From NCBI RefSeq assembly GCF_014650175.1, contig NZ_BMUL01000004.1, positions 186,001 through 250,000 on the forward strand: a DNA stretch of 64,000 nucleotides, given 5' to 3'. The notes under the pieces are model-generated. The model saw nothing but the letters and a program-made list of their open reading frames with translations. It was not told where the DNA came from and ran no database searches. Position numbers and translations under genes: made by a program. Below are positions 29,899-62,151 of this stretch, piece after piece; positions within the stretch are counted from its first letter, which is position 1; every line of letters starts with the position of its first letter. The stretch comes from Streptomyces termitum. Its GTDB lineage: Bacteria; Actinomycetota; Actinomycetes; Streptomycetales; Streptomycetaceae.

Positions 29899-30303
29899 AT
29901 GAACGACGTCCGGGTGGCGGCGATCGCCAGCCTCACCCCGCTCGAAGAACTCGACTCCGCGCCCTTCCTCGTCGACACCCGGGGCCAGCGCGACGCGTGC
30001 GCCCGCTGGGCGGACGAGCGGGGCTACGTCCTCGCCCGCGAGCTCCTCTTCTACGGCATCCGCCCCGACCACGACGAACTGTGGGCCGACGTGGAGTCCG
30101 GCGAGGTCGACCTCTTCGTCGCCGCCAACGAGCGGGTCCTCGCCCGCGCGCTGACCTCGGTGCCGGACTTCCGCGCCGAGTGCGCCCGGCGCGGCGTCCG
30201 GCTGGAGACCGCCGGTGTCGAGGGGACGGGCTACGACGCCGCCTCCCGCGCCGCCGTCCACCGCCGCCTCTCCATGCCCACCGCCGGCTACGACGGCGGC
30301 TGA
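29899..30303 (+). CDS. Small protein resembling a stand-alone resolvase-type N-terminal domain
   Basis: A 134-residue soluble protein. The order (F)LVDTRGQRDACARWADERGYV ... DELWADVESGEVDLFVAANERVLARA ... FRAECARRGVRLETA follows the helix-strand pattern of serine recombinase catalytic domains (Q..ac..~a...G; g.vD.lv......Rl.R; f...l...gv.l). The catalytic Ser expected near the N terminus is not obvious and there is no DNA-binding domain. It is therefore unlikely to recombine DNA. I do not know its role. Confidence 0.5.
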   Translation: MNDVRVAAIASLTPLEELDSAPFLVDTRGQRDACARWADERGYVLARELLFYGIRPDHDELWADVESGEVDLFVAANERVLARALTSVPDFRAECARRGVRLETAGVEGTGYDAASRAAVHRRLSMPTAGYDGG

Positions 30304-30404
30304 CCCCCTCCGCCCCGGGGAACACGCTCCCGCGCCCGGTGGGCGCGGGCCGGGTGCCGGTGTGCCACGCTGGGGGGAGGATCCGGGCGAAAGGTGACAC
30401 GGGC

Positions 30405-32567
30405 GTGGCCGAGGGTCGAGGGGGAGGCGCCGGACGCTGGCGCACGGCGGGCCGGACGGCCCTGCGGGTGGTCGTCGTGTGGGCGGTGTCCACCCTCACC
30501 CTGCTGGTGCTCGCCGGCCTCCTGCCGGCCTTCCAGCTCCAGTCCGCCGACGGCGACAGCCTCACCCGGACGGCCCTGACCGCCGCCTGGGCCGCCGGGG
30601 CCTTCGGCCTCCTCACCGCCCTCGTCTGGCCGCTCCTGGTACGGGCCCTGCTGCTGGTGCCCGCCCTGGTGCTCGGCCTGCTCTCGTTCTTCCTCAACGG
30701 CTCGCTGCTGCTGTTCGCGCTCTGGCTGATCCCGGACGGCCGGGGCGCCGCCGACCCCGAGACGGCGGTCGTCGTCGCGGCCGTCATGTCGGCCGTCGCC
30801 TCCGCCACCTCCACCGCGCTGGCCGTCCGGGACGACGAGGCGTACCGCCGCCGGCTCTACCGGCTCACCGGCCGCACCCGCCCCCGCGACCCGGGCTCCG
30901 GCTCCGCGCCCGGCACGGTCTTCCTCCAACTCGACGGCGTCGGCCACGCGGTGCTGCGCGAGGCCGTCGACGCCGGGCTGATGCCGACGGTGGCCGGATG
31001 GCTGGAGGACGGGCACCGGCTCACCGGCTGGCGCACCGACTGGTCCAGCCAGACCGGCGCCAGCCAGCTCGGCATCCTGCACGGCAGCAACGAGGACGTG
31101 CCCGCCTTCCGCTGGTACGAGAAGGACACCGGCCGCCTGATGGTGTCGAACCGGCCCGCCTCCGCCGTCGAGCTCCAGCGCCGCGCGGTCCGCCGCACCG
31201 GCGACGGCGGGCTGCTCACCCTCGACGGCGCCTCGCGCGGCAACCTCTTCAGCGGCGGCGCCGACGAGGTCGCGCTGGTGCTGACGGTCGCCGCCCGGCG
31301 CGGCCGGCGCAACCGCTCACGGGCCGGCTACTTCGCCTACTTCGCCGACCCGGCCAACGGCGTCCGCACCGCCGGCTCCTTCGTCAACGAGGTGGTGCGC
31401 GAGGTCCTCCAGTCGCTCCGCGCCCGGCTGCGCCACGAGACCCCCCGCGTCCCGCGCGGCGGCACCTACCCCCTGGTCCGTGCCTTCGCCACCGTCGTCG
31501 AGCGGGACGTGGTGGTGGCCGCGGTGATGGGCGACATGCTCGCGGGCCGCACCGCGGTCTACGCCGACCTGGTGGCCTACGACGAGGTGGCCCACCACTC
31601 CGGGCCGCGCGGGCGCGACACCGACCAGGTGCTGCGCCGCCTCGACCGGGCGGTCGGCCTGATCGCGACGGTCGCCGAGCACGCCCCGCGGCCGTACCGG
31701 ATCGTGCTCCTCTCCGACCACGGGCAGAGCCCGGGGGAGACCTTCGAGGGGGCGTACGGGCTGACGCTGAAGGAGCTGGTACGGGCGGGCTGCGGGCTGC
31801 CGGTGCCGCGCCGGGTCCGCCGCACCCGCAGCGGCGCGGAGGCCCGGGACGCCGCCCGGGACGCGCTGCGCAGCGCCCTGCACCGGCCGGTGGACCCGGG
31901 CGGCGAGCACACCGGGGAGCTGCCCGCCCGGCCGTCCGAGCCGATCGTCCTGGCCTCCGGGAACCTGGGCCTGGTCTCCTTCCCGGACGTGCCGCACCGG
32001 CTGACGCGGGAGGAGATCGACCGGCGCCACCCGGCGCTGCTGCGGGCCCTCGCCCAGCACCCGGGCGTCGGCTTCCTGCTGGTGGCGAGCGAGCGGCACG
32101 GCTCGGTGGTGCTGGCCGCGGACGGGGTGGAGGTGCCGGTGGCGGAGCTGGCGGACGGCGAGGGGCCGCTCGCGGTCTTCGGTCCCGGCGCGGCCGACGC
32201 GGTGCGGCGCACCGACGGCTTCCCGCACGTCGCCGACGTGATGGTCAATTCGATGTACGACCCGGCGACCGGGGCGGTGCACGCCTTCGAGGAGCAGATC
32301 GGCTCGCACGGCGGCCTCGGCGGCGAGCAGACGCGGCCCTTCCTGCTGTCACCGCCGGAGCTGTCGCCGCCGGTCCCGGAAGGGGCGGAACCGGTGGGCG
32401 CCGAACAGGTCCACCGGGTGCTGCGGCGCTGGCTGGGCGAGGGCGGCGAGGGGCCGCAGGTGCCGGTGGAACGGCGGGCGGGGGTACCGGAGACCTCCCT
32501 GCCCGAGGGAAAGACGGAATCAGTCCTTCCGGCCGAGGGGGCGGCCGTACCGGACGAGAACCGCTGA
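30405..32567 (+). CDS. Membrane protein with alkaline-phosphatase-superfamily domain
   Basis: A 720-residue protein. Residues about 15-145 contain four hydrophobic segments of the phage-holin-4/superfamily-III-like type. The rest is an alkaline phosphatase/phosphodiesterase-superfamily domain: FLQLDGVGH (metal Asp), WSSQTGASQ (probable nucleophile Thr), ADLVAYDEVAHHSG and LLSDHGQS (metal Asp/His). It may hydrolyse or transfer phosphate esters at the membrane. The GTG at 30405 is preceded by AAAGGTGA. The C-terminal tail is unstructured. Confidence 0.78.
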   Translation: MAEGRGGGAGRWRTAGRTALRVVVVWAVSTLTLLVLAGLLPAFQLQSADGDSLTRTALTAAWAAGAFGLLTALVWPLLVRALLLVPALVLGLLSFFLNGSLLLFALWLIPDGRGAADPETAVVVAAVMSAVASATSTALAVRDDEAYRRRLYRLTGRTRPRDPGSGSAPGTVFLQLDGVGHAVLREAVDAGLMPTVAGWLEDGHRLTGWRTDWSSQTGASQLGILHGSNEDVPAFRWYEKDTGRLMVSNRPASAVELQRRAVRRTGDGGLLTLDGASRGNLFSGGADEVALVLTVAARRGRRNRSRAGYFAYFADPANGVRTAGSFVNEVVREVLQSLRARLRHETPRVPRGGTYPLVRAFATVVERDVVVAAVMGDMLAGRTAVYADLVAYDEVAHHSGPRGRDTDQVLRRLDRAVGLIATVAEHAPRPYRIVLLSDHGQSPGETFEGAYGLTLKELVRAGCGLPVPRRVRRTRSGAEARDAARDALRSALHRPVDPGGEHTGELPARPSEPIVLASGNLGLVSFPDVPHRLTREEIDRRHPALLRALAQHPGVGFLLVASERHGSVVLAADGVEVPVAELADGEGPLAVFGPGAADAVRRTDGFPHVADVMVNSMYDPATGAVHAFEEQIGSHGGLGGEQTRPFLLSPPELSPPVPEGAEPVGAEQVHRVLRRWLGEGGEGPQVPVERRAGVPETSLPEGKTESVLPAEGAAVPDENR

Positions 32568-32790
32568 TCCGGGCTGCCCGTCGCCACCGTCCCGCAGAGG
32601 AGGACGCCCCCCGCCGGGGGAGGCGTGACCCGGGCGCCCGCGCCCCCCCGTCCCTCTCCGCCATGACCTCCGGGGTAATCGACCCGGACCCCGGTCCGGC
32701 GGCAGGCTTCGGGGCACCGGGACCCGGGCGGCGCACTCCGCCCGGGGACCGGGCCCATCCCGCGCACGACCCCCAGGAGGGTGATCCGCC

Positions 32791-33207
32791 ATGTCCCGGA
32801 ACCTGCTCGCCGGTCTCACTCGCACCACCCGGCCGGACGCGACGATCCGCCGCCTCCTCGCCCTCGACGCGGTCGTCACCGGCGCCAACGGCCTCGCCTA
32901 CGCCCTCGCCCCCGGCCCGCTCGGCGAACTCCTCGGCGTCGGGTCCGGCCTCCTCCTCGGCCTCGGCCTCTTCCTCACCGCCTACGCCGCCGGCGTCGCC
33001 TGGCCGGCGAGCCGCCCGCAGCCGCCGGCCGCCGCCGTGAAGCTGGTCGTGGACGCCAATCTGCTCTGGGTCGTGCTCAGCCTCGTCGCTCTCGCCGCCT
33101 GGCTCGACCCCACCACCGCCGGAGCCGTCTGGATCCCGCTCCAGGCCGCCACCGTCGCGGGCTTCGCCGTCCTCCAGTGGACCGCCCTGCGGGCCGTCAG
33201 TCGCTGA
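32791..33207 (+). CDS. Four-helix membrane protein of unknown function
   Basis: A 138-residue protein with four predicted membrane segments (about residues 22-42, 47-67, 82-102, 110-130) and a short basic N terminus. I do not recognise a specific family; similar small integral membrane proteins are common in actinobacteria. CAGGAGG lies 11 bases before the ATG. The last 11 bp overlap the convergent regulator gene. Confidence 0.7.
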   Translation: MSRNLLAGLTRTTRPDATIRRLLALDAVVTGANGLAYALAPGPLGELLGVGSGLLLGLGLFLTAYAAGVAWPASRPQPPAAAVKLVVDANLLWVVLSLVALAAWLDPTTAGAVWIPLQAATVAGFAVLQWTALRAVSR

Positions 33208-34000
33208 GGGTCCGCAGGTACTCCGCCGTCGCCGGGTCGGCCGGGAGCATCGTCTCGATGGCCAGCTCGGCGACGGTCACGTCCAGCGGAGTGTTGAAGG
33301 TCGAGATCGACGACACGAACGACAGCACCCGCCCGTCGTGCTCGATCCGCAGCGGCAGCGCGAAGTAGGCGTACGGCTCCTCCGCCGGCTCCTCGTCGGG
33401 CCGCTCCGGCGGCAGCGGATACCCCGTCACCTCCGCGTGGAGCGCCCGCAGCGATTCCGAACGGCCGAAGGCGATCTGACGCTCCATCTGCTCCACCAGG
33501 TGCCCCCGCCAGGCCCGCAGATTGCGGATCCGGGGCGCCAGCCCCTCCGGGTGCAGGGTGATCCGCATCGCGTTCGCCGGCGGGGCCAGCAGGTGCTCCG
33601 GCAGCCCGGCGAGCAGCCGCTCCAGCGCCCGGTTGGCCGCCACCACCGTGTACGAGCCGTCCACCACCAGCGCCGGATACGGCTCGTACCCCCGCAGCAG
33701 CCGCCCGATGCCCTCCCGCAGCGTCTCCAGCTCCGGCGCGTCCAGCGCCGACTCCGGATAGCGGGGCGCGTAACCGGCCGCCAGCAGCAGCGCGTTGCGG
33801 TCCCGCACCGGCACCTCCAGGTGCTCGGCCAGCCGCAGGACCATCTCCTCGCTCGGCCGCGACCGGCCCGTCTCCACGAAGGAGATGTGCCGCGAGGACG
33901 ACTCCGCCCGCAGCGCCAGCTCCAGCTGGCTCAACCGCCGCCGCTCGCGCCAGCGGCGCAGCAGCGGCCCCACACCCGTGTCGCTCACGACCGTCGCCAT
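33197..34000 (-). CDS. XRE-type regulator with MmyB-like ligand-binding domain
   Basis: A 267-residue regulator. The helix-turn-helix lies at residues 10-65 (RLSQLELALRAESSSRHISFVETGRSRPSEEMVLRLAEHL), typical of the MmyB/XRE group. The C-terminal part (about 95-260) fits the MmyB-like ligand-binding domain, proposed to bind small hydrophobic molecules. The start at 34000 removes an unlikely 9-residue extension. It is divergent from the pterin dehydratase gene and convergent with the membrane protein gene. Confidence 0.85.
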   Translation of the reverse strand: MATVVSDTGVGPLLRRWRERRRLSQLELALRAESSSRHISFVETGRSRPSEEMVLRLAEHLEVPVRDRNALLLAAGYAPRYPESALDAPELETLREGIGRLLRGYEPYPALVVDGSYTVVAANRALERLLAGLPEHLLAPPANAMRITLHPEGLAPRIRNLRAWRGHLVEQMERQIAFGRSESLRALHAEVTGYPLPPERPDEEPAEEPYAYFALPLRIEHDGRVLSFVSSISTFNTPLDVTVAELAIETMLPADPATAEYLRTLSD

Positions 34001-34076
34001 GCCCAGACGGTATCCCAGAGGAGCCACCCGGGTACGAACCCCGTACCCCGCACCACCGACCGGAGGGAGCGCCCCC

Positions 34077-34382
34077 GTGCCCGTACAGCCGCTGTCGCAG
34101 AAGGAGATCGAGGACCGACTGCGGGAACTCCCCGGCTGGTCCGTCGAGAACGCCCGCCTGACCCGCTCCTACCGCCTCCCCGACCACTTCGCCGCCACCG
34201 CCCTCGTCGTCCACGTCGCCCAGATCCAGCAGGAGTTGGACCACCACTCCGACCTCACCCTCGGCTACGACACGGTGGCCCTCTCCGTCCACACCCACTC
34301 CGCCGGGGGCGCCCTCACCGAGAAGGACTTCGCCCTCGCCGAACGGGTCGAGGCCGCCGCCACCGCCCACGGCGCCCGCTGA
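34077..34382 (+). CDS. 4a-hydroxytetrahydrobiopterin dehydratase (PCD/DCoH)
   Basis: A 101-residue protein of the PCD family, which dehydrates 4a-hydroxy-tetrahydropterin made by aromatic amino acid hydroxylases. The catalytic signature HHSDLTLGYDTVALSVHTH near residue 58 has the conserved His pair, and ALTEKDFALA follows. The GTG start is preceded by CGGAGGGAG. No hydroxylase gene is adjacent. It is followed 32 bp later by a methyltransferase in the same direction. Confidence 0.88.
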   Translation: MPVQPLSQKEIEDRLRELPGWSVENARLTRSYRLPDHFAATALVVHVAQIQQELDHHSDLTLGYDTVALSVHTHSAGGALTEKDFALAERVEAAATAHGAR

Positions 34383-34414
34383 CCGCCGGGCCGCCCGCCC
34401 CGTAGGCTCCCCGC

Positions 34415-35161
34415 ATGGCGGACACCCTGCTCGACTACGAGACCGAGGCGGCCCACTACGACGAGACGCGCGGCGGCGTGCCCCGGGCCGGAGCGGCGGC
34501 CGCCGCCGTCCTGACGCTGGTGCCGCCCGCCGCGCGCACCCTCCTCGACCTGGCCTGCGGCACCGGCCTCGTCACCGAGCGGCTGACCCGGCCCGGACTG
34601 CGCGTCCTCGGCGCCGACGCCGCCCACGCCATGGCCAGGACCGCCGCCGGCCGGCTCCCCGGCCGCACCGTCCGCGCCGACGCCCGCCGGCTCCCGCTCC
34701 CCGGCGCGAGCCTGGACGCGGTCACCGCCGTCTGGCTCCTCCACCTGGTGCCGTTCACCGGCGAGGTCCTCGCCGAGGCCGCCCGCGTCCTGCGCCCCGG
34801 CGGCGTCCTCGTCACCACCGTCGACAAGGACGCCTGCCACGACGTCGGCAGCGACATCGACGCCCTGCTCCGCCCGTACCGGACGCCCGCCACCGCCCAC
34901 GACCGCACCGGCCGGGTCGACGCCCTCGCCGCCGCCCACGGCCTCGCCCCCGCCGGCACCGCCGCCTTCACCGGCCACGGCCAGGGCGCCACCCCCGAGG
35001 CCGTCGCCCGTCGGCTGCGCGCCGGGCACTACGCCTCCTGGTTCCGGGGCGACGCCGCCGCCGTCGAGACCCTGACCCGCGCCCTGGCCGCCCTCCCCGG
35101 CCCGACCGCCCCCCGACCGGCCCCGGTCTACCGCCTGCGCGCCTACACCCGCACGGACTGA
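34415..35161 (+). CDS. Class I SAM-dependent methyltransferase
   Basis: A 248-residue protein. Motif I is LLDLACGTGLVTERL near residue 45, the acidic loop is GADAAHAMA, and VTAVWLLHLVPFTGEVLAEAARVLRPGGVL is the methyltransferase-11 motif. The MADTLLDYETEAAHYDETRGG start is typical of the subgroup. The substrate is unknown. It lies 32 bp after the pterin dehydratase and probably shares its transcript. It is convergent with the ABC-F gene. Confidence 0.87.
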   Translation: MADTLLDYETEAAHYDETRGGVPRAGAAAAAVLTLVPPAARTLLDLACGTGLVTERLTRPGLRVLGADAAHAMARTAAGRLPGRTVRADARRLPLPGASLDAVTAVWLLHLVPFTGEVLAEAARVLRPGGVLVTTVDKDACHDVGSDIDALLRPYRTPATAHDRTGRVDALAAAHGLAPAGTAAFTGHGQGATPEAVARRLRAGHYASWFRGDAAAVETLTRALAALPGPTAPRPAPVYRLRAYTRTD

Positions 35162-35215
35162 CCCCGCCGGGCGGTGCCCTTCCGGGGCCGGGCCTTCCCG
35201 GTCGTACGGCCCCGG

Positions 35216-36898
35216 TCACGCGCCCCGGGCCGCCTCCTCGCGGATCCGGCCCGCCGCCAGTTCCAGCCGGCGGCCGGCGAAGGCCGTGCGGAAGGCGCGG
35301 TCGTGGGAGACCGCGACCACCGTGCCGGGGAAGGCGGCGAGGGCCTCCTCGACCTCCTCCAGGAGCGCGGGCGCGAGGTGGTTGGTCGGCTCGTCCAGGA
35401 CCAGCAGGTCCGCTGGGCGGTCCAGCAGCCGGGCCAGGTCGAGCCGCCGCCGCTGCCCGGCCGACAGGGCCGCCACCGGCACCGCCAGGTCCTCCTCGCG
35501 CAGCAGCCCCAGCGCCAGCAGCGCGTCCGCGTGCTCCTCCGGCGGGCCCGGCCGGCCCGCCGCCCAGACCGCGAGGGCGGTCCGGCGGGTGGGGGAGTGG
35601 GGCAGCTCCTGCGCCAGGTACCCGACCCGGCCGGTACGGCGCACCGCGCCCTCGTCCGGCACCAGGTCGCCCGCGAGGACCCGCAGCAGGGTCGTCTTCC
35701 CGGCCCCGTTGGGCCCGGAGACGAGCAGCCGCTCCCCGGCCTCCACCCGCAGCCCGGCCACGGCCAGCCGCCCGCCGACGACCACCCCCGCCAACTCCAC
35801 CCCGCCGACGGGAGCGGGAGCGGGGGCGGGGACCGGGGCACCGGGCGGCGCGGGGGGCCCGGCCGGGGCCGCGAACCGGCCGCCGAAGCGGAGCGGCTCC
35901 GGCGGCGCCGCCACCGGCTCCCGCCGCAGCTCCTCCAGCCTGCGGCGGGCCGCCCGCACCTGCCCCGACAGCTTGTTCTCGCTGGAGCGCCGGTGCTTGC
36001 CGAAGCCCTGGCGCGGGTCCCTCCCGGTCACGGCGAGCCGCTGCCCCGCCGCCGCGACCAGCTCCTCCGTGCGGTCCACCTCCTCCCGCCACTCCAGGTG
36101 CTCCCGCTCCAGGCGGCGCCGCTCGGCGGCCTTCGCGGACCGGTAGCCGGTCCAGCCGTCCCCGTACCGCCGCACGGACCGGGTGTCGCGGTCCACCTCC
36201 AGGACGGTGGTGGCGAAGCCGGACAGGAAGGCCCGGTCGTGGGTGACGACCAGGGCGGTGCCCCGGTGCGCGGCGAGCCGCCCGCGCAGCCAGTCGACGG
36301 CGTCCCCGTCGAGGTGGTTCGTCGGCTCGTCGAGCAGCAGCAGTTCGGCCCCGGAGGAGAGAACGCAGGCCAGCGCGAGCCGGGCCTGCTCGCCGCCGGA
36401 CAGCGAGCCGAGCCGCCGCCCGGGCGTGACGTGCCCGAGCCCGAGGGCGTGCAGGGCGGCGGCGGTCCCGGCGTCGGCCCGGTAGCCGCCGCGCTCCTCG
36501 AAGCGGTCCAGGAGCGCGCCGTACGCGGCGAGCCCGTCCGCGTCGGCCTCCCCGAGGCCCGCCTCCGCCGCCCGCAACTCCGCTTCCATGGAGCGCAGTT
36601 CGGCGAGCGCGAGATCGACGGTGTCCCGCACGGTGTGGTCGGGGCCGACCGGGTACGTCTCCGGCAGCGTCTGGGCGAGCCGGGCGACGGAGCCCGGGAA
36701 GTCGACGAGGAGCTCGCCTTCGTCGGGGGTCAGGCCGCCGTCGAGCAGCCGCAGCAGGGTCGACTTGCCGGAGCCGTTCTCGCCGACGACGACGGCCTTC
36801 TCACCGGGCCGGACGGTGAAGGAGACCTGGTCGAGGACGCGGCGGTCCCCGAAGGCGAGGCCGACGGAACGGAGGGAGAGCTGGGCGCGAGCACGCAT
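35216..36898 (-). CDS. ABC-F family ribosome-associated ATPase (antibiotic-resistance type)
   Basis: A 560-residue protein with two ABC domains and no membrane segments. Domain 1 has Walker A GENGSGKST, signature LSGGEQARLAL and Walker B LLLLDEPTNHLD. Domain 2 has GPNGAGKTT, LSAGQRRRLDLA and LLVLDEPTNHLA. The linker between them (about 255-340) is charged and helical. ABC-F proteins bind the ribosomal E site and relieve drug or translation stalls. Upstream is an 8-codon leader ORF whose end can pair with this gene's ribosome-binding site (AGAGGAA, 7 bases before ATG), strong evidence for drug-inducible translation. Confidence 0.9.
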   Translation of the reverse strand: MRARAQLSLRSVGLAFGDRRVLDQVSFTVRPGEKAVVVGENGSGKSTLLRLLDGGLTPDEGELLVDFPGSVARLAQTLPETYPVGPDHTVRDTVDLALAELRSMEAELRAAEAGLGEADADGLAAYGALLDRFEERGGYRADAGTAAALHALGLGHVTPGRRLGSLSGGEQARLALACVLSSGAELLLLDEPTNHLDGDAVDWLRGRLAAHRGTALVVTHDRAFLSGFATTVLEVDRDTRSVRRYGDGWTGYRSAKAAERRRLEREHLEWREEVDRTEELVAAAGQRLAVTGRDPRQGFGKHRRSSENKLSGQVRAARRRLEELRREPVAAPPEPLRFGGRFAAPAGPPAPPGAPVPAPAPAPVGGVELAGVVVGGRLAVAGLRVEAGERLLVSGPNGAGKTTLLRVLAGDLVPDEGAVRRTGRVGYLAQELPHSPTRRTALAVWAAGRPGPPEEHADALLALGLLREEDLAVPVAALSAGQRRRLDLARLLDRPADLLVLDEPTNHLAPALLEEVEEALAAFPGTVVAVSHDRAFRTAFAGRRLELAAGRIREEAARGA

Positions 36899-36905
36899 GG
36901 GAGGG

Positions 36906-36914
36906 TTCCTCTGA
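36906..36914 (-). promoter_or_regulatory. Ribosome-binding site of the ABC-F gene, sequesterable
   Basis: On the transcript this reads TCAGAGGAA, containing the Shine-Dalgarno AGAGGAA 7 bases before the ABC-F ATG. It is the exact reverse complement of TTCCTCTGA, the last two codons plus stop of the leader ORF at 36984-37010. Pairing would close the ABC-F start until a ribosome stalls on the leader. Confidence 0.75.
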
Positions 36915-36941
36915 CGGGTTCGTGGAAGAAGGGCACACGAA

Positions 36942-36975
36942 ACCGGCCCTCGGCCGCGCGGGCGGCCGGGCCGGT
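36942..36975 (-). promoter_or_regulatory. Strong hairpin between leader ORF and ABC-F gene
   Basis: ACCGGCCC and GGGCCGGT (8 bp) enclose a second inverted repeat (CGGCCGC/GCGGCCG), giving a nearly continuous GC stem. In the transcript it sits between the leader stop and the ABC-F ribosome-binding site and would bring the two complementary 9-mers together. A weak TTT follows, so an additional terminator function is possible. Confidence 0.7.
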
Positions 36976-36983
36976 GAACCGGA

Positions 36984-37010
36984 TCAGAGGAAGAAGTACA
37001 ACGCGCCCAT
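36984..37010 (-). CDS. Leader peptide of the ABC-F gene (8 residues)
   Basis: ATG followed by GGC GCG TTG TAC TTC TTC CTC and TGA encodes MGALYFFL. It starts 112 bp upstream of the ABC-F start. No Shine-Dalgarno is present, but TAGCCT ends 7 bases before the ATG, so the leader is probably read from a leaderless transcript. The final codons Phe-Leu-stop are complementary to the ABC-F ribosome-binding site. The aromatic-rich peptide resembles known stalling leaders of resistance genes in size and position. Its role is inferred. Confidence 0.7.
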   Translation of the reverse strand: MGALYFFL

Positions 37011-37017
37011 GGGATCG

Positions 37018-37023
37018 AGGCTA
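37018..37023 (-). promoter_or_regulatory. Probable -10 element of the ABC-F leader transcript
   Basis: TAGCCT on the minus strand, 7 bases before the leader ATG, fits a vegetative -10 hexamer and predicts a transcription start at or within a base of the ATG. The -35 region is not canonical. An A+T-rich AAATCAT lies further upstream at 37048-37054, which might suggest activator dependence. Confidence 0.45.
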
Positions 37024-37086
37024 ACAGCCGTCCCGGTACGCCCGCCGATGATTTCTCCGGCGCCCGCACGCCCCCCGGGGCGGAGG

Positions 37087-38010
37087 TCAGGCGTCCCGTG
37101 CCGCCTCCGCCGCGAACCGCCCGAAGGAGCGCGGGTCGCGGCCCAGGACGCGCTTCACGCCGTCCGTCGCCGACGCGTTGTGGCCGTCGAGCAGCGTCGC
37201 GAAGAGGTCCGCCAGCCACTCCGCCTCCGGCCCGGGCAGACCGAAGCCGGTCAGCAGGGCCGCGTACCGCTCCCGCCCCACCGGCACGTACGCCACCGGC
37301 CGCCCCGAGGCGCGGGACAGCTCCGCCGCGACCTCCGCGAAGGTCACCGGGCGGGGGCCGGTCAGCTCGTGGACGAGGCCCGCGTGCGCGTCCGACAGCA
37401 GCGTCTCCACCACCACGTCCGCGAGGTCCGCCACGTCCACGAACGGCTCCGCCGTCTCCCCGGCGGGGAAGACCAGCTCGCCCGCCGCGACCCCCTCCGC
37501 GAGCAGCCCCTCGGTGAAGTTCTGGGCGAAGAACGCCGCCCTGACCACGGTCAGCGGGATGCCGTCCGCCGCCGCCCGCAGCGCCTCCTCGGCCGCCACC
37601 GCCGTCGGCTCCCCGCGCCCCGACAGCAGCGTCAGCCGCCGCACGCCCGCCCGGGCCGCCGCCCCGCCGAAGGCGGTCATCGCGGCCACCGCGCCCGGCG
37701 CGGCCAGGTCCGGGTAGTAGTTCACATAGGCCGCGTCCGCGCCCGCCAGGGCCGGCGCCCAGCTCTCCGGGTCCTCCCAGTCGAAGCGGACCGGACCGGA
37801 CCGCGAGCCCGCCAGGACGGCCGTTCCGCGCGCCGCGAGCCGCTCCGCCACCCGGCGGCCCGTCTTGCCCGTCGCCCCCGTCACCAGGACCGTCCGCACG
37901 GCCGCGGCCCCCGCGTCCGTCCCCGTCGTGCCCGTCGTGCCCGTCGTGCCCGTCGTGCCCGTCGTGCCCGTCGTGCCCGTCGTGCCCGTGGTGTTCGTGG
38001 TGTTCGTCAT
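37087..38010 (-). CDS. NmrA-like NAD(P)-binding oxidoreductase
   Basis: A 307-residue atypical short-chain dehydrogenase. The Rossmann motif VLVTGATGKTGRRVAERL begins near residue 42, and AYVNYYPDL, RRLTLLSGRG and PFVDVADLADVVVETLL match the NmrA/NAD(P)H:quinone-type family. The first 35 residues are low-complexity Thr-Thr-Gly repeats encoded by a 9-bp tandem repeat and are not part of the fold. The actual start could lie downstream of the repeat. A divergent AraC-type gene suggests local control. Substrate unknown. Confidence 0.84.
   Translation of the reverse strand: MTNTTNTTGTTGTTGTTGTTGTTGTTGTTGTDAGAAAVRTVLVTGATGKTGRRVAERLAARGTAVLAGSRSGPVRFDWEDPESWAPALAGADAAYVNYYPDLAAPGAVAAMTAFGGAAARAGVRRLTLLSGRGEPTAVAAEEALRAAADGIPLTVVRAAFFAQNFTEGLLAEGVAAGELVFPAGETAEPFVDVADLADVVVETLLSDAHAGLVHELTGPRPVTFAEVAAELSRASGRPVAYVPVGRERYAALLTGFGLPGPEAEWLADLFATLLDGHNASATDGVKRVLGRDPRSFGRFAAEAARDA
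37924..37986. repeat. Seven perfect 9-bp tandem repeats (CGTCGTGCC)
   Basis: Seven identical 9-bp units followed by two variant CGTGGTGTT units lie at the N-terminal end of the NmrA-like gene, giving Thr-Thr-Gly repeats in the protein. The unit length is a multiple of three, so copy-number change keeps the frame. Expect variation between strains. Confidence 0.9.
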
Positions 38011-38159
38011 GATCGGCTCCTCGTCCCGCGGCCCGCTCGCCGCGCTCCCTCGTGCTCCCTTTTCGGGGTCCTCCCCGCTGCCTCCAGCCTTCCGCCCGGC
38101 GGCCCCCGCGCCCATGCTCCGGCGGCTCGGCCGCATGCGCGTGCGTCTACGCTGCGGGC

Positions 38160-39092
38160 ATGGACGCACTCGCCGGACTCCTCGACGGGCCCCGCGCCAA
38201 GGGCGCCTTCCTGCTGCGGATGGTGATGGAGCCCCCGTGGTCGGTGCGGATCGAGGACGGCGCCCCGCTGTGCCTGATGTGCGTCACCGAGGGCGAGGCG
38301 TGGATCACGCCGCCCTCCGGCGAGCCCGTCCCGCTGCGCCCCGGCGACCTCGCCATCGCGCGCGGCCCGGAGCCGTACACCGTCGCGGACGCCGCCGGCC
38401 GGACGCCGCGCGCCCGCATCGGACCCGGCGGGGAGTGCGCCACCCTCTCCGGCGAACCGCTCGCCGAGACCCTGCGCCTGGGCGTACGGACCTGGGGCAA
38501 CGCCCTCGACGGCGGCACGACCGTCCTCGTCGGCACCTACCTGGTGGACGGCGAGGTCGGACGGCGGCTGCTCGACGCGCTGCCGCCCCTCGTCCACCTC
38601 CCGGCCGAGCTGTGGCGCTGCCCGCTGATGCCGTTCCTGGAGGAGGAGATCGCCCGCGACGAGCCGGGCCAGAGCGCCGTCCTCGACCGGGTCCTCGACC
38701 TGCTGCTCATCGCCGCCGTCCGCGCCTGGTTCGCCCGGCCCGGCGCCGAGGCGCCCGCCTGGTACCGGGCGATGGCCGACCCGGTGGTGGGCCGCACCCT
38801 GCGCCTCCTCCAGGACGATCCCGCCCATCCGTGGACGGTGGCCTCGCTCGCCGCGAAGGCCGGGGTGTCCCGGGCGGCGCTCGCCCGCCGCTTCACCGCC
38901 CTGGTGGGGGAGCCCCCGATGACGTACCTGACCGACTGGCGCCTCGCGCTCGCCGCCGACCTGCTGCGCGAGGGCGACGCCACCCTGGAGTCCGTCGCCC
39001 GGCGGGTCGGCTACAGCGGCGCCTTCGCCCTCAGCGCCGCCTTCAAACGGGTCCGGGGCGTCAGCCCGAGCACCTACCGCTCCGGCACCTGA
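38160..39092 (+). CDS. AraC-family transcriptional regulator with cupin domain
   Basis: A 310-residue regulator. The N-terminal cupin_6-type sensor (residues about 15-180) contains LRPGDLAIARGPEPY. The C-terminal double helix-turn-helix (about 200-305) has WTVASLAAKAGVSRAALARRFTALVGEPPMTYLTDWRL and VARRVGYSGAFALSAAFKRVRGVSPSTYR, the AraC signature. Divergent transcription from the NmrA-like gene, with 149 bp between, is the usual layout of this regulator class and its oxidoreductase target. Start ATG at 38160. Confidence 0.9.
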   Translation: MDALAGLLDGPRAKGAFLLRMVMEPPWSVRIEDGAPLCLMCVTEGEAWITPPSGEPVPLRPGDLAIARGPEPYTVADAAGRTPRARIGPGGECATLSGEPLAETLRLGVRTWGNALDGGTTVLVGTYLVDGEVGRRLLDALPPLVHLPAELWRCPLMPFLEEEIARDEPGQSAVLDRVLDLLLIAAVRAWFARPGAEAPAWYRAMADPVVGRTLRLLQDDPAHPWTVASLAAKAGVSRAALARRFTALVGEPPMTYLTDWRLALAADLLREGDATLESVARRVGYSGAFALSAAFKRVRGVSPSTYRSGT

Positions 39093-39184
39093 CCCGCCCC
39101 GGACCCCGGCCGGACCCGGCCCGGACCCGGATCGGCCCCCGACCGGCCCTGACCGGTCCCGGTCGCTCCCGGGCCGCGACACGT

Positions 39185-39199
39185 TTGCCGTACCGGCAA
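39185..39199. promoter_or_regulatory. Perfect palindrome TTGCCG-TAC-CGGCAA upstream of a methyltransferase
   Basis: A 15-bp perfect inverted repeat lies 43 bp before the ATG of the His-rich methyltransferase gene, followed by an A+T-rich stretch (CTTTTCTCGCG). It has the form of an operator, possibly TetR-type. Confidence 0.55.
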
Positions 39200-39241
39200 C
39201 TTTTCTCGCGTTTTCGGCGACCTTCCCCGCACGCTGGTGCC

Positions 39242-40204
39242 ATGACCCAGCAGCGCGCACCCCACGACCACCACGGCGACCACTCCGGCCACGGCCACCA
39301 GGGCGGCCACGGAGAGGGCCACGGGCACGGACCGGGCCACGGACACGGCCACGGGCACGACACCGGGCTCGCCTGGAGCGAGCTCGCCCCGCTCCTGGAG
39401 CGGCAGGCCGAGGTCGCCGGCACCGCCTACCGCGAGGCCGCCGCCTGGCTCGGCACCCTGCTCCCGGCGAGCGGCGTCCGCCGCCTCCTCGACGTCGGCA
39501 GCGGCCCCGGCGTCATCACCGCGATGCTCGCCGAGGCGTTCCCGTACGCCGAGGCCGTCGCCGTCGACGGCACCCCCGAACTCCTGGAGCGCGCCCGCGC
39601 CCGCGCCGAGGCCCGGGGGCTCGGCGCCCGCGTCACCACCCTGCGCGCCGAACTCCCCGGCGAGGCCGCCGCGCTCGGCGAGGCCGACCTGGTGTGGGCG
39701 GGCAACTCGCTGCACCACATCGGCGACCAGCGCGCCGCGCTCGCCGACTTCGCGAAGGTACTGCGCCCCGGCGGCCTGGTCGCCCTCGTCGAGGGCGGGC
39801 TCACCCCCCGGCACCTGCCCCGGGACATCGGCATCGGCCGCCCCGGCCTGGAGGCCCGCTTCGACGCCGAGCACGCCGACTGGTTCGCCCGGATGCGGTC
39901 CGAGCTGCCCGGCGCGGTCCGCGAGCCGGACGACTGGCGGGCCCTGTTCGCCTCCGCCGGCCTCGTCCCGGCCGGCACCCGCACCTTCCTCGTGGACGTC
40001 CCGGCCCCCGTCCCGCAGGTCGTCCGCGAGCTGGCCGTCAGCCACTTCGGCCGGCTGCGGGAGGGCTTCGGCGACAGCCTCGGCGCCGAGGACCGGGCCA
40101 CCCTGGACCGGCTCCTCGACCCGGCGGACGAGCAGTCCCTGCACCACCGCACGGACCTCTTCCACCTCACCGCCCACACGGTCCACACCGCCCGCAAGGG
40201 CTGA
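39242..40204 (+). CDS. SAM-dependent methyltransferase with His/Gly-rich N terminus
   Basis: A 320-residue protein. Residues 8-40 are a repeated Gly-His tract with about 16 histidines, likely a metal-binding tail. Residues about 60-230 form a class I methyltransferase: LLDVGSGPGVITAML, AVDGTPELLERA, VWAGNSLHHIGDQRAALADFAKVLRPGG. The methyl acceptor is unknown. A palindrome 43 bp upstream may be its operator. It ends before a strong bidirectional terminator. Confidence 0.87.
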   Translation: MTQQRAPHDHHGDHSGHGHQGGHGEGHGHGPGHGHGHGHDTGLAWSELAPLLERQAEVAGTAYREAAAWLGTLLPASGVRRLLDVGSGPGVITAMLAEAFPYAEAVAVDGTPELLERARARAEARGLGARVTTLRAELPGEAAALGEADLVWAGNSLHHIGDQRAALADFAKVLRPGGLVALVEGGLTPRHLPRDIGIGRPGLEARFDAEHADWFARMRSELPGAVREPDDWRALFASAGLVPAGTRTFLVDVPAPVPQVVRELAVSHFGRLREGFGDSLGAEDRATLDRLLDPADEQSLHHRTDLFHLTAHTVHTARKG

Positions 40205-40222
40205 GCGCGGGCGCGCGGAAAA

Positions 40223-40263
40223 GGGAGGAGGGGGCACCGGCGCGGCCGGTGCCCCCTCCTCCC
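40223..40263. terminator. Perfect 19-bp stem bidirectional terminator
   Basis: A 19-bp perfect stem with a 3-base GCG loop lies between the convergent methyltransferase and aldo/keto reductase genes, preceded by AAAA and therefore usable in both directions. Confidence 0.85.
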
Positions 40264-40275
40264 GTCGTCCGGGGC

Positions 40276-41121
40276 TCAGGCGCCCACGTTGAACTCGCCC
40301 GGGTTCGGGCCCAGGCGGCGGCCCTCGTCGAGCGCCGCGATCGCGGCCAGGTCCTCGGCGTCCAGCTCGAAGTCGAAGACGTCGATGTTCTCCCGGATGC
40401 GGGACGGGGTCACCGACTTCGGGATCACCACGTTGCCCAGCTGGAGGTGCCAGCGCAGCACCACCTGGGCCGGGGTCCGGTCGTGCTTGCGGGCGACGGC
40501 GACGAGCGCGGGGACGTCCAGCAGGCCCCGGCCCTGGCCCAGCGGCGACCACGCCTCGGTCGCGATGCCCAGCTCGGCGTGGACCGCGCGGGACCCGGCC
40601 TGCGCGAGCTGCGGGTGCAGCTCGATCTGGTTCACCGCCGGCACCACCGAGGTCTCCCCGGTCAGCCGCTCCAGGTGCTCGGGCAGGAAGTTGGAGACGC
40701 CGATCGCGCGGGCCCGGCCGTCGGCGAGGATCTTCTCCAGGGCCCGGTAGGTGTCGACGTACGCGTCCTTCGCCGGCACCGGCCAGTGGATCAGGTACAG
40801 GTCGACGTGGTCGAGGCCGAGGAGCTCCAGCGAGGCGTCGAAGGCGCGCAGCGTGGAGTCGTACCCCTGCTCGCTGTTCCACAGCTTCGTCGTGACGAAC
40901 AGTTCCTCGCGGGGGAGCCCGGAGGCGGCCAGGGCCCGGCCGGTGCCCCGCTCGTTCTCGTAGATCGCCGCCGTGTCGATGGAGCGGTAGCCCGCCTCCA
41001 GCGCGGTGGCCACGGCCTTCTCCGCCTCGTCGTCCGGCACCTGCCAGACGCCGAAGCCGAGCTGCGGCATCGCCACGCCGTTGTTGAGGAGGACAGAGGG
41101 GACCTTGTTGTCCGTGCTCAC
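40276..41121 (-). CDS. Aldo/keto reductase
   Basis: A 281-residue NADPH-dependent reductase of the AKR5-like (2,5-diketo-gluconate reductase) group. The TIM-barrel motifs are GFGVWQV, the catalytic tetrad Asp in SIDTAAIYENE with Tyr, Lys in TTKLWN and His in LIHWP, and the nucleotide-binding IPKSVTPSRIRENIDVF. The start is GTG at 41121. It appears monocistronic. The natural carbonyl substrate cannot be read. Confidence 0.92.
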   Translation of the reverse strand: MSTDNKVPSVLLNNGVAMPQLGFGVWQVPDDEAEKAVATALEAGYRSIDTAAIYENERGTGRALAASGLPREELFVTTKLWNSEQGYDSTLRAFDASLELLGLDHVDLYLIHWPVPAKDAYVDTYRALEKILADGRARAIGVSNFLPEHLERLTGETSVVPAVNQIELHPQLAQAGSRAVHAELGIATEAWSPLGQGRGLLDVPALVAVARKHDRTPAQVVLRWHLQLGNVVIPKSVTPSRIRENIDVFDFELDAEDLAAIAALDEGRRLGPNPGEFNVGA

Positions 41122-41257
41122 GTGGGAAGGATCCTTACGTCGTCGTGGTCGTACGGGGACGGGCGCGGCCCGCCCTCCCGTGCAACGATCACCCGGCCCG
41201 TGGAATTCCGGCCACCGGAAACCGCTCTCCGGTCCTTGCGGGGTGCCCCCCGGCGCC

Positions 41258-43099
41258 TCAGCCGTACAGCGCGTCCACCTCGGCCCCGTACGCCCGCTCG
41301 ATCGCCTTCCGCTTCAGCTTCAGCGAGGGGGTGAGCAGCCCGTGCTCCTCGCTGAAGGGGTGCGCCAGGATGCGGAAGGTGCGGATCGACTCCGCCTGCG
41401 ACACCAGCGTGTTCGCGGCCACCACCCCGCGCCGGATCTCCGTCTCCAGGTCCGGGTCCCGCACCAGCTCGGCCGGGGAGAGCGACGGCCGGCCCCGGAT
41501 CGACAGCCAGTGCTCGACCGCCTCCCGGTCCAGCGTGACCAGGGCCGCCACGTACGGCCGGTCGTTGCCGACGACCAGGCACTGCGCGATCAGCGGATGG
41601 GCCCGCACCCGCTCCTCCAGACCGGCCGGCGACACGCTCTTCCCGCCGGACGTCACCAGGATCTCCTTCTTCCGCCCGGTGATCGTCAGATAGCCGTCCT
41701 CGTCGAGCGCCCCGATGTCCCCGGTGGCCAGCCAGCCGTCGCTGAGCACCGCGGAGGTGGCCGCCGGGTCGTTCAGGTAGCCGGAGAAGACGTGCCCGCC
41801 GTGCAGCCACACCTCCCCGTCCTCCGCGATGTGCACGGTCGTGCCCGGCACCGGCCGGCCCACCGTGCCGTACCTGACCCGGTCCGGCGGGTTCGCGGTC
41901 GCGGCGGCCGTCGACTCCGTCAGGCCGTACCCCTCGTAGACGGTCACCCCGGCGCCCGCGAAGAACAGCCCCGTCCGCCGGTCCATCGCCGAGCCGCCGG
42001 ACATCGCGTACCGGATCCGCCCGCCGAGCGCCTCCCGCACCTTCGCGTACACCGTCCGGTCGAAGAACTGGTGCTGCACCCGCAGCGCCGCCGACGGGCC
42101 GGGCCCCAGGCCGAAGGAGCGCTGCTCCAGCGCCTCCGCGTACTTCACCGCCACGTCCGCCGCCTTGTCGAAGACGCCCGCCCGGCCCTCCGCCTCCGCC
42201 TTCCGGCGGGCCGCGCCGAGGATCTTCTCGAAGACGTACGGGACGGCGAGGACGAAGCTCGGCCGGAAGGCGGCCAGATCGGGCAGGAGCACCGAGGCCG
42301 TCATCGACGGCTGGTGCCCCAGCTTCACCCCGCCGCGCACCGCCGCCACCTCCACCATCCGCCCGAAGACGTGCGCCAGCGGCAGGAAGAGCAGCGTGGA
42401 GGTCTGCTCGCCCGGCCGGGAGCCGAAGACCGGCGCCCACCCGGCGAGCACCGTGTCCGTCTCGAAGAGGAGGTGGCCGTGGGTGAGCACGCAGCCCTTG
42501 GGGCGTCCGGTCGTGCCCGAGGTGTAGATGACGGTGGCGACCGTGTCGGGCGTCACCGCCCGGCGGTGCCGCTCCACGACCTCCGCGTCGATCTCCGCCC
42601 CGGCCGCCGTCAGCTCGGCGACCGCGCCGGGCCCCGCGTCCTCGCCGGGGTCGAGCTGCCACAGCCGCTGGAGGCGCGGCAGCCGGTCCACCACCGAGCC
42701 GATCGTCATGGCGTGGTCCTCGTGCTCCACCACGCAGGCCGTGACCTCGGCGTCGTGCAGCATCCACAGCACCTGGTCGGCGGAGGAGGTCGGATAGACC
42801 GGCACCGGCTGGGCGCCGAGCGTCCACAGCGCGAAGTCGAAGAGGGTCCACTCGTAGCGGGTACGGGACATGATCGCGACCCGGTCCCCGAACCGCACCC
42901 CGTGCGCGACCAGCCCCTTCGCCAGCGCCAGCACCTCGTCCCGGAACTCCGCGCAGGTCACGTCCCGCCAGGAGCCGTCCGGGCCCCGGCGCGCGAGGGC
43001 GGCCGCGTCGGGGGTGGCCCCGGCCCGGTCGAAGACGGCGTCCGCCAGACCGCCGTCGAGCGGGGCCGCCCCGACGGGCGGCACGGTGAACTCGCGCAC
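41258..43099 (-). CDS. Long-chain acyl-CoA synthetase (AMP-binding, FadD15-like)
   Basis: A 613-residue adenylate-forming enzyme that activates fatty acids as acyl-AMP and then acyl-CoA. The P-loop-like VIYTSGTTGRPKG lies near residue 185, followed by YEGYGLTESTAAAT, DGWLATGDIG and the C-terminal hinge/catalytic Lys region GRKKEILVTSGGKSV. Length and order match the bacterial FadD15/long-chain type. GGGAGGAG precedes the GTG at 43099. The gene stands alone between an aldo/keto reductase and a 345-bp gap. Confidence 0.92.
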   Translation of the reverse strand: MREFTVPPVGAAPLDGGLADAVFDRAGATPDAAALARRGPDGSWRDVTCAEFRDEVLALAKGLVAHGVRFGDRVAIMSRTRYEWTLFDFALWTLGAQPVPVYPTSSADQVLWMLHDAEVTACVVEHEDHAMTIGSVVDRLPRLQRLWQLDPGEDAGPGAVAELTAAGAEIDAEVVERHRRAVTPDTVATVIYTSGTTGRPKGCVLTHGHLLFETDTVLAGWAPVFGSRPGEQTSTLLFLPLAHVFGRMVEVAAVRGGVKLGHQPSMTASVLLPDLAAFRPSFVLAVPYVFEKILGAARRKAEAEGRAGVFDKAADVAVKYAEALEQRSFGLGPGPSAALRVQHQFFDRTVYAKVREALGGRIRYAMSGGSAMDRRTGLFFAGAGVTVYEGYGLTESTAAATANPPDRVRYGTVGRPVPGTTVHIAEDGEVWLHGGHVFSGYLNDPAATSAVLSDGWLATGDIGALDEDGYLTITGRKKEILVTSGGKSVSPAGLEERVRAHPLIAQCLVVGNDRPYVAALVTLDREAVEHWLSIRGRPSLSPAELVRDPDLETEIRRGVVAANTLVSQAESIRTFRILAHPFSEEHGLLTPSLKLKRKAIERAYGAEVDALYG

Positions 43100-60507: not shown

Positions 60508-62151
60508 TCACTCCCCGAAGCACGTCCCTTCGCGCAGCTCCTCCACCGGGACCGGCCGCAGAGCGCCGTCCAGGAGCAGCCACCGGGTCGGCTCCAGCGA
60601 CTCCAGGAACGCCAGGTCGTGACCGGCCACGACCAGCGCCCCCTCGTACGCGGCGAGCGCCGCCGTCAGCTCCCGTACCGACGCCATGTCCAGACCGTTC
60701 GTCGGCTCGTCCAGCAACAGCAGCTGCGGGGCCGGCTCCGCGAGCAGCAGCGCCGCCAGCGTCGCCCGGAACCGCTCCCCGCCCGACAGGGTGCCCACCA
60801 CCCGGTCCGCCCGGGCGCCCCGGAACAGGAACCGGGCCAGCCGGGCCCGGATCACGTTCCCCGTCGCGGCCGGCGCGAACCGGGCCACGTTCTCCACGAC
60901 GGTCAGGGAGTCGTCCAGGAGGTCCAGCCGCTGCGGCAGGAACCGCAGCGGCACGTGCACCGCCGCCTCGCCCGCCACCGGCGCCAGCTCCCCGGCCAGG
61001 GTCCGCAGCAGCGTCGTCTTCCCCGCCCCGTTCCGCCCCGTCAGCGCGATCCGCTCCGGGCCCCGCACCTCCAGCGCGCCCTCCACCCGGGCCCCGTACC
61101 GCAGCTCCAGGTCCCGCAGCAGCAGCACCTCGCGGCCGGCCGGCACCGAGGTGCGCGGCAGCTCGACGCGGATCCCGTCGTCCTCCCGCACCGCCTCCGC
61201 CGCCGCGTCCAGCCGCTCCCGGGCCTTCGACAGACGCTCCTCGTGCAGGTGCCGGTGCTTGCCCGCCGACACCTGCGCCATGCTCCGGCGGTTGTTGGCC
61301 ACCACCTTCGGCACGACCTTGTTCTCGTAGCTCTTGCGCGCGTACCGCTGCCGCCGCGCCAGCTTCGCGCGGGCGTCCGACAGCTCCCGCCGCTGTCGCC
61401 GCACGTCGGCCTCGGCGACCCGCACCATCCGCTCCGCCGCCTCCTGCTCGGCCGCGAGCGCCTCCTCGTACGCCGTGTACCCGCCGCCGTACCAGCGCAG
61501 CCCGCCCTCGTGGAGGTCGGCGATCCGGTCGACCCGCTCCAGGAGCTCGCGGTCGTGGCTCACCACCACCAGCGCCCCCGGCCACTCCTCCACCGCCCGC
61601 TGGAGGCGCGCACGGGCCCGCAGGTCCAGGTTGTCGGTCGGCTCGTCGAGGAGCAGCACGTCCGGCCGGGCCAGCAGCAGCGCCGCGAGGCGCAGCAGCA
61701 CCGTCTCGCCGCCGGACACCTCGCCGACCGTGCGGTCGAGGCCGATCGCGCCCAGCCCGAGCCGGTCCAGGGCCGCGTGGGCGCGCTCCTCCACGTCCCA
61801 GTCGTCGCCGAGCACCGCGAAGTGCTCCTCGGCCGGGTCGCCGGCCTCGATCGCGTGCAGCGCGGCCCGTTTCCGGTCGATGCCGAGGACCGCGTCCACC
61901 CGGCGGCCGGTGTCCAGGACGAGGTTCTGCGGCAGATAACCGATCCGGCCGGACCGGCGCACCGAACCGGCGGTGGGTACGAGGTCCCCGGCGAGGAGCC
62001 GCAGCAGGGTCGACTTCCCGGAGCCGTTGGTGCCGATCAGGCCGGTGCGGCCGGGGCCGACGGCGACCTTCAGGCCGTCGAAGACGCCGGTGCCGTCGGG
62101 CCAGGCGAAGGAGAGGGCGGCGGAGGAGAGGAGAACGGGCTGGTGTGACAC
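60508..62151 (-). CDS. ABC-F family ATPase, second copy
   Basis: A 547-residue ABC-F protein with two ABC cassettes (GTNGSGKST, VSGGETVLLRLA, LLLDEPTDNLD; GRNGAGKTT, LSGGERFRATLA, LLLDEPTNGLD) and a linker containing KHRHLHEERLSKARERL. Note the N-terminal cassette has DNLD and the C-terminal NGLD after DEPT. It differs strongly from the ABC-F protein at 35-37 kb, so it is not a duplicate. The GTG at 62151 has GGGAGG upstream. A 250-bp upstream leader suggests post-transcriptional control, as in resistance-type members. Confidence 0.88.
   Translation of the reverse strand: MSHQPVLLSSAALSFAWPDGTGVFDGLKVAVGPGRTGLIGTNGSGKSTLLRLLAGDLVPTAGSVRRSGRIGYLPQNLVLDTGRRVDAVLGIDRKRAALHAIEAGDPAEEHFAVLGDDWDVEERAHAALDRLGLGAIGLDRTVGEVSGGETVLLRLAALLLARPDVLLLDEPTDNLDLRARARLQRAVEEWPGALVVVSHDRELLERVDRIADLHEGGLRWYGGGYTAYEEALAAEQEAAERMVRVAEADVRRQRRELSDARAKLARRQRYARKSYENKVVPKVVANNRRSMAQVSAGKHRHLHEERLSKARERLDAAAEAVREDDGIRVELPRTSVPAGREVLLLRDLELRYGARVEGALEVRGPERIALTGRNGAGKTTLLRTLAGELAPVAGEAAVHVPLRFLPQRLDLLDDSLTVVENVARFAPAATGNVIRARLARFLFRGARADRVVGTLSGGERFRATLAALLLAEPAPQLLLLDEPTNGLDMASVRELTAALAAYEGALVVAGHDLAFLESLEPTRWLLLDGALRPVPVEELREGTCFGE

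Follow-up and report, generated by a model that had tools for sequence, protein, structure and literature searches.

What controls the ABC-F ATPase gene in a stretch of Streptomyces termitum DNA (the window; 64,000 nucleotides (nt), contig NZ_BMUL01000004.1, positions 186,001 to 250,000), upstream of which lies a short open reading frame (ORF) for the peptide MGALYFFL? An initial annotation had read the pair as a leader-peptide translational attenuator of the erm type. Our analysis indicates that the element is very probably a ribosome-mediated translational attenuator, one with a single helix and cat-like rather than erm-like. The leader end and the Shine-Dalgarno (SD) site of the ABC-F gene are its two pairing arms, and its parts in window coordinates are as follows.

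37050..37055, minus strand: GAAATC box, fitting the WblC motif GAAAWY at 6 of 6 letters, 3 base pairs (bp) before the -35 position (motif comparison, 17-bp spacer).
37018..37023, minus strand: -10 box TAGCCT, 7 nt (CGATCCC) upstream of the leader ATG; the transcript is predicted to begin with the A of this ATG or directly beside it.
36984..37010, minus strand: leader ORF MGALYFFL with its stop, eight codons, predicted to be leaderless (sequence reading and comparison).
36984..36992, minus strand: anti-SD arm TTCCTCTGA, formed by leader codons 7 and 8 and the stop (complementarity, folding, clade alignment).
36917..36981, minus strand: GC-rich hairpin region separating the two arms (RNA fold).
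36944..36956, minus strand: weak terminator-like stem with a GTTTCGTGTG tail, the sole terminator hint (one found, against a mean of 0.2 in shuffles).
36906..36914, minus strand: SD arm TCAGAGGAA, the predicted ribosome-binding site of the ABC-F gene (complementarity, folding, clade alignment).
35216..36898, minus strand: ABC-F ATPase gene, 560 amino acids (ORF and NCBIfam model search).

The leader reads ATG GGC GCG TTG TAC TTC TTC CTC TGA (37010-36984, minus strand). Its last 9 nt (36992-36984) and the 9 nt of the SD arm (36914-36906, minus strand) are exact reverse complements, and 7 nt, CCCTCCC, separate the latter from the ABC-F ATG (36898-36896), letter for letter as the initial annotation had it. 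That annotation also placed a GC-rich hairpin between the 9-mers, holding them together. The predicted fold of 125 nt agrees, with a minimum free energy of -62.7 kcal/mol (z -5.43; none of 200 shuffles equally stable), the arms paired (10 pairs, one G-U) and the hairpin enclosed. Leader codons 2-4 pair with the ABC-F start region in the same fold. The pattern TTCYTCTGA-N45-75-TCAGARGAA is present in five of 392 same-genus genomes; two of these, the genome of the window and G346, carry the leader element, and the other three are unlike it, judged by the matched letters alone. Rfam returned no matches in window positions 30000-42000 or for six loci at E 0.5.

The leader is conserved among relatives. 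The first 200 bases of the ABC-F gene plus the leader were used as a query against the 392 genomes, of which 313 matched at E <=1e-12, mostly through the coding part. Our sample took the 30 top loci, 60 further listed ones (from the top) and the named Streptomyces loci L009-L011; several were skipped, among them those of G050, G205, G331 and G313, and L009, the same as L129, was dropped. The resulting 92 loci are 82 homologues with at least 58% identity and 10 paralogues at about 50%. A leader detector blind to the -10 box asked for 6-11 residues with an aromatic at the penultimate place and another among the three preceding it. It found a leader in 81 of the 82 homologues, L111 being the one without, and in none of the paralogues; as background it called one in 6 of 82 reverse complements and in 18 of 1640 shuffles. 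Once a -10 box 6-7 nt away was demanded as well, 79 of the 82 homologues were retained, with no hit in the 10 paralogues, the 82 reverse complements or the 1640 shuffles. These 79 leaders were used in all analyses, L130 and L135 being left out for want of a TANNNT box. Two named Streptomyces plasmid records outside the count have the leaders MAFLFFV (NZ_CP030074.1) and MAFFYFL (NZ_CP081497.1). Judged from sequence comparison, the leader upstream of ABC-F homologues is more than chance, and we rejected an accidental ORF as an account of it.

Model R1, built on subclass A1 (34 of the 37 sequences whose gap measures 60-78 nt) and run with strict filters, had hits in 18 of 101 genomes and missed the genome of the window. 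Eight of the 18 hits were read and six lie upstream of an ABC-F homologue; the remaining ten coincide by coordinates with ABC-F loci already analyzed. None of the 18 was found as a leader before another kind of gene. The hit at L233 was judged a chance hit given the gene that follows, which we take to be an electron-transfer-flavoprotein gene. At L226 (G049) the ABC-F locus has decayed and a leader remnant ending TACTTCCTCTGA is retained.

The leaders are 7-10 residues long in varying frames; examples are MGTFHYFL, MGAFSYYFL, MGAYHYYFFL, MGSFYFFL, MAFLFFV, MTFYFFL, MRFFFFL, MDFYRFP, and MPTYSYYFFR. All 79 have Phe as the penultimate residue, where the detector required an aromatic residue and not Phe, and all stop with TGA. 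The last residue is Leu in 38, Arg in 19, Val in 18, and Pro in 4. Position -3 is Phe or Tyr in 75 leaders, while Tyr, Phe, His or Leu occupies position -4 in 76 and position -5 in 78. The rare codon TTT encodes the penultimate Phe in 29 of 79 leaders, compared with 2 of the 117 remaining Phe codons of the leaders and 17 of the 721 counted in ABC-F coding stretches, an excess that fits pairing with AGGGAAAG.

Such a peptide might instead sense charged Phe-tRNA, with the gene answering starvation or general translation stress and not a drug in the ribosomal tunnel. The richness in aromatic residues fits amino-acid sensing, leaderless amino-acid leader peptides exist in Streptomyces lividans (PMC8079986), and WblC responds to amino-acid starvation too (PMC12421871). 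The S. lividans TK24 report covers eight leader peptides, several of them leaderless, and was confined to amino-acid genes (PMC8079986). However, Tyr, His, Leu and Phe interchange at positions -3 to -5 of our leaders, one Phe position alone is fixed, and the downstream gene encodes an ABC-F ATPase and is no amino-acid gene. We regard amino-acid attenuation as quite improbable.

Pairing between leader and SD site extends across the relatives. The predicted pairing of the SD core with the leader exceeds 0.5 in 66 of 79 loci; with the SD window shuffled the figure is 16%. Duplexes of the leader end with its own SD site average -11.29 kcal/mol over the 79 leaders, against -10.08 (standard deviation 0.19) for swapped partners, which were as low as the true ones in none of 10,000 permutations, and -5.9 for shuffled SD sites. 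For 27 representatives hand-picked from different clades of the tree, the values are -12.52 and -10.79 kcal/mol (standard deviation 0.37; none of 20,000 permutations). In the 15-member clade of the window the RNAalifold consensus is the leader:SD helix. Its true register pairs 96.7% of cells, and slid registers 48-68%; pair 30-181 is U-A in 10 and C-G in 4 of the 15, and the covariation score of 0.188 was matched by 4 of 500 shuffles. In subclass A1 the helix is paired in 83% of cells. Among leaders ending CTC TGA, a TTT Phe codon goes with A in the SD site in 26 cases and G in 1, and TTC with G in 6 and A in 3 (Fisher p 0.0003; one further leader was left out as its SD base was unreadable), an association inflated by the relatedness of the sequences. 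By the terms of the initial annotation, related genomes without leader and complementarity would have spoken against it; the relatives have the leader in 81 of 82 cases, and their own pairing beats swapped pairing.

A plain RNA hairpin, in which a stem covers the SD site for unrelated reasons and the short ORF is incidental, would draw on the fact that conservation lies partly in the bases that pair with the SD site. Against it, in 79 of 81 leaders the spacing of start codon and -10 box is fixed, leaders of 7-10 residues differ in frame, the aromatic residues lie upstream of the paired bases, and the detector is almost silent on shuffles and reverse complements. We regard a plain hairpin as highly improbable.

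Erm-type attenuators rely on competing hairpins, and a drug-stalled ribosome on the leader frees the SD site. A drug-stalled leader ribosome may free the SD site here as well, but an erm-type double hairpin, which we considered, found no support: the folds, with alternatives explored through constrained folds only, gave a single leader:SD helix enclosing a hairpin, and no pair of mutually exclusive hairpins was seen. In attenuators of the cat-86 type, one helix in the leader region hides the SD site of the resistance gene, and the leader is not leaderless. The window element resembles this type in its single helix between leader end and SD site (weaker in subclass A1), and differs from it in gene, peptide, inducer and the predicted leaderless start. 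The attenuator of the initial annotation is supported by the leader in 81 of 82 homologues and none of 10 paralogues and by the advantage of own over swapped pairing; its anatomy is better read as a cat-like single helix than as erm-like.

In this translational attenuator, transcription would start at the leader ATG, probably from a WblC/WhiB7-type promoter, and the leader would be translated without an SD site. In the absence of drug the ribosome would complete MGALYFFL and depart, the last two codons and the stop would pair with the ABC-F SD site, and earlier leader codons would pair with the ABC-F start region, so that little ABC-F protein is made. A ribosome stalled on the leader by an antibiotic would turn the gene on. 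In our energy model a ribosome masks the RNA from 15 nt upstream to 16 nt downstream of the first P-site base. Opening the window SD site then costs 15.6 kcal/mol in free RNA and 14.0 when a ribosome sits on the start codon, falling to 4.3 for one at mid-leader and 3.8 for one on the last sense codon; the corresponding means of the 79 leaders are 8.7, 6.1, 4.1, and 4.3. The cost at the last codon is below that of the free SD site in 74 of 79 and below that of the start-codon state in 46. The window values suggest that a ribosome halted past the start would expose the ABC-F gene. A start-codon ribosome would not free the SD site of the window in this model, which disfavors drugs that stall at initiation.

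Upstream ORF (uORF) control of ABC-F genes is already well known, and among the closest parallels is MsrDL (MYLIFM), the leader of msrD, a streptococcal macrolide ABC-F gene. Like our leaders, MsrDL is a very short hydrophobic and aromatic peptide before an ABC-F gene with a penultimate Phe; with erythromycin it arrests at its stop codon, and the penultimate F5 clashes with release factors (PMC10314930). Arrest of this kind is what the anatomy of the window would require, and drug-dependent arrest at the leader stop codon, as in MsrDL, is perhaps what happens here. The two systems differ in that MsrDL uses a Rho-independent terminator, a ribosome-binding site and a UAA stop (PMC10314930), while the window element has a hidden SD site, a UGA stop and a leader predicted to be leaderless. 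Between leader and gene, no Rho-independent terminator as in MsrDL was found beyond one weak site in the window.

Were there such a terminator, the leader ribosome could decide between termination and antitermination upstream of the ABC-F gene, with SD pairing secondary. Such transcription attenuation could draw on the weak terminator-like site of the window (36956-36944) and on a similar CCGGTTTCGTGTG or CCGGTTTCGCGTG stretch in L095-L097. Set against this, a T run of at least four lies between leader and gene in just 1 of 79 loci, and the sequence after the SD arm of the window is C-rich and not U-rich. Terminators of Streptomyces may lack a U run. We consider a transcriptional switch unlikely overall, the weak site leaving it a possibility in the clade of the window.

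Other described uORFs resemble the element in part. In Streptomyces coelicolor, are5sc (uORF MLV) and tiaA (MVGDDDISG) are likewise ABC-F genes with a uORF, and are5sc is WblC-regulated; unlike the window gene they belong to ARE5, with a predicted terminator switch and different peptides (PMC12421871). Lincosamide, streptogramin A, and pleuromutilin drugs are reported to halt ribosomes at the start codon of ARE5 uORFs (PMC12421871). According to the energy model, stalling of that kind would not expose the window SD site; it would do so for Val-ended leaders. The Clostridioides cplR gene also has a sequestered SD site, and combines transcriptional and translational attenuation with a three-residue uORF (MRI), a U-run terminator and membership in ARE1 (PMC10201436). 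In the accessible parts of these papers the described uORFs belong to ARE1, ARE2, ARE3, and ARE5 genes, msrD included, and none is a leader of the MGALYFFL type. A literature search that included six leader strings left this family unnamed in the titles and abstract starts of the matches listed, most subscription papers lying outside its reach.

Several results weigh against a translational attenuator with arrest at the leader end. All 79 leaders stop with TGA, and changing the MsrDL stop from UAA to UGA lowers induction (PMC10314930). Invariance of the penultimate Phe may be partly an RNA constraint, since this codon is part of the paired segment. When a ribosome occupies the stop codon, the SD site is predicted to be still 0.59 paired on average, with local partners, and for Val-ended leaders a start-codon ribosome opens the modeled SD site equally well or better. 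The leader:SD helix has a mismatch in Val- or Arg-ended leaders, and strong predicted pairing is lacking in 13 of 79 loci. These include L118, the nearest in the tree to the window's own four, which has no predicted leader:SD pairing and a free SD site that opens for 1.9 kcal/mol. Covariation, to which the initial annotation had looked, is borne out by one compensatory pair in the window clade, and in A1, the largest subclass, it is no better than in shuffles (112 of 500 did as well). Only that one helix pair changes on both sides in the window clade, where the register slid by -1 scores slightly higher (0.199 versus 0.188). The A1 RNAalifold consensus has an inner hairpin and a short coding-start stem only, without the leader:SD helix. 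Tree-based independent pairs for TTT or TTC versus the SD base number about two for and none against, which is not significant. The window ABC-F protein also stays below the curated cut-off of its best family model, 623 bits against 800 for NF000171.

The leaderless start postulated in the initial annotation, with TAGCCT 7 bases upstream, has its counterpart in the relatives. A TANNNT -10 box precedes the leader start in 79 of 81, by 6 nt in 46 and 7 nt in 33, a spacing that makes a leaderless mRNA probable. In S. coelicolor, promoters activated by WblC carry GAAAWY 3 bp upstream of the -35 and TANNNT as the -10, with transcription mostly beginning 7-8 bp downstream of the -10 (PMC7157823). 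At least 5 of the 6 letters of GAAAWY are matched in 24 of the 41 leaders that lack a GAGACG repeat, in 12 of the 38 that have it, and in 1.6% of shuffles. The -35 hexamer of the window, GGCGGG, is poor. Many subclass A loci (L099, L107 and L114 among them) have an inverted repeat, GAGACGAGACG...CGTCTTG, over the promoter just before the leader -10 box. It is also found upstream of several paralogues and is a possible repressor operator.

A broader proposition, which we advance tentatively as possible though short of probable, is that leaderless arrest peptides form a genus-wide family in Streptomyces, to which a WblC-type promoter adds a second control layer. The same nine nt would encode a drug-dependent termination arrest, needing the invariant penultimate Phe to block release factor 2 at UGA, and serve as the anti-SD sequence of the ABC-F gene. 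The sensing peptide and the RNA switch would then have to evolve together, synonymous changes in the Phe codon being answered by changes in the SD site. Were the attenuator confirmed, a TlrC-like group of Streptomyces ABC-F genes would gain a drug-sensing control not found in the literature searched, and a leaderless mRNA would serve as a regulatory sensor. It would also provide dozens of natural arrest-peptide variants, with Leu, Arg, Val or Pro as the last residue and aromatic positions exchanged, in which to study how a drug together with a 7-10 residue peptide halts the ribosome at the peptide end.

The ABC-F identity of the gene is clear, and its best NCBIfam model is TlrC/CarA/OleB/SrmB (NF000171). 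Its resistance function and the class of inducer are putative; macrolides and streptogramin B are the drugs against which ARE4 proteins such as TlrC act (PMC10201436). The genome of the window (G000; 7.1 Mb, 77 contigs) encodes two further ABC-F genes, L184 and L185, which outscore the window gene on NF000171 and upstream of which no leader of the MGALYFFL type was seen.

Other short ORFs accompany ABC-F genes in these genomes. A second ABC-F gene of the window, at about 60508-62151 (minus strand), is preceded by TTG CTC GTC TGA (MLV; 62350-62339, minus strand), which has AGAAGGA upstream and resembles the TTG-started MLV uORF of are5sc (PMC12421871). The ABC-F homologues L198, L199, and L200 (G629, G533, G444), at 55-60% identity, belong to another family, f17. 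All three have a leader of another kind, MWSFYGYANRLRSL, which also looks leaderless and follows a -10 box by 7 nt; they were left out of the leader counts. Further ABC-F paralogues have short ORFs near a -10-like box: MIRFYYFYI at L209 (G516), MGSL at L206 and L210, and, by eye, MGTLIFQ at L207 (f36). Inspection by eye of L101, L117, and L129 shows that the leader can pair over its full length with a stretch directly 5' of the SD site (in L101, CGTCAGGAAGAAG...CACGTAC), which may be a second version of the switch. Adjoining the element, at 37918-38010 (minus strand), an NmrA-like protein starts with Thr-Gly-Thr repeats encoded by a tandem cccgtcgtg DNA repeat.
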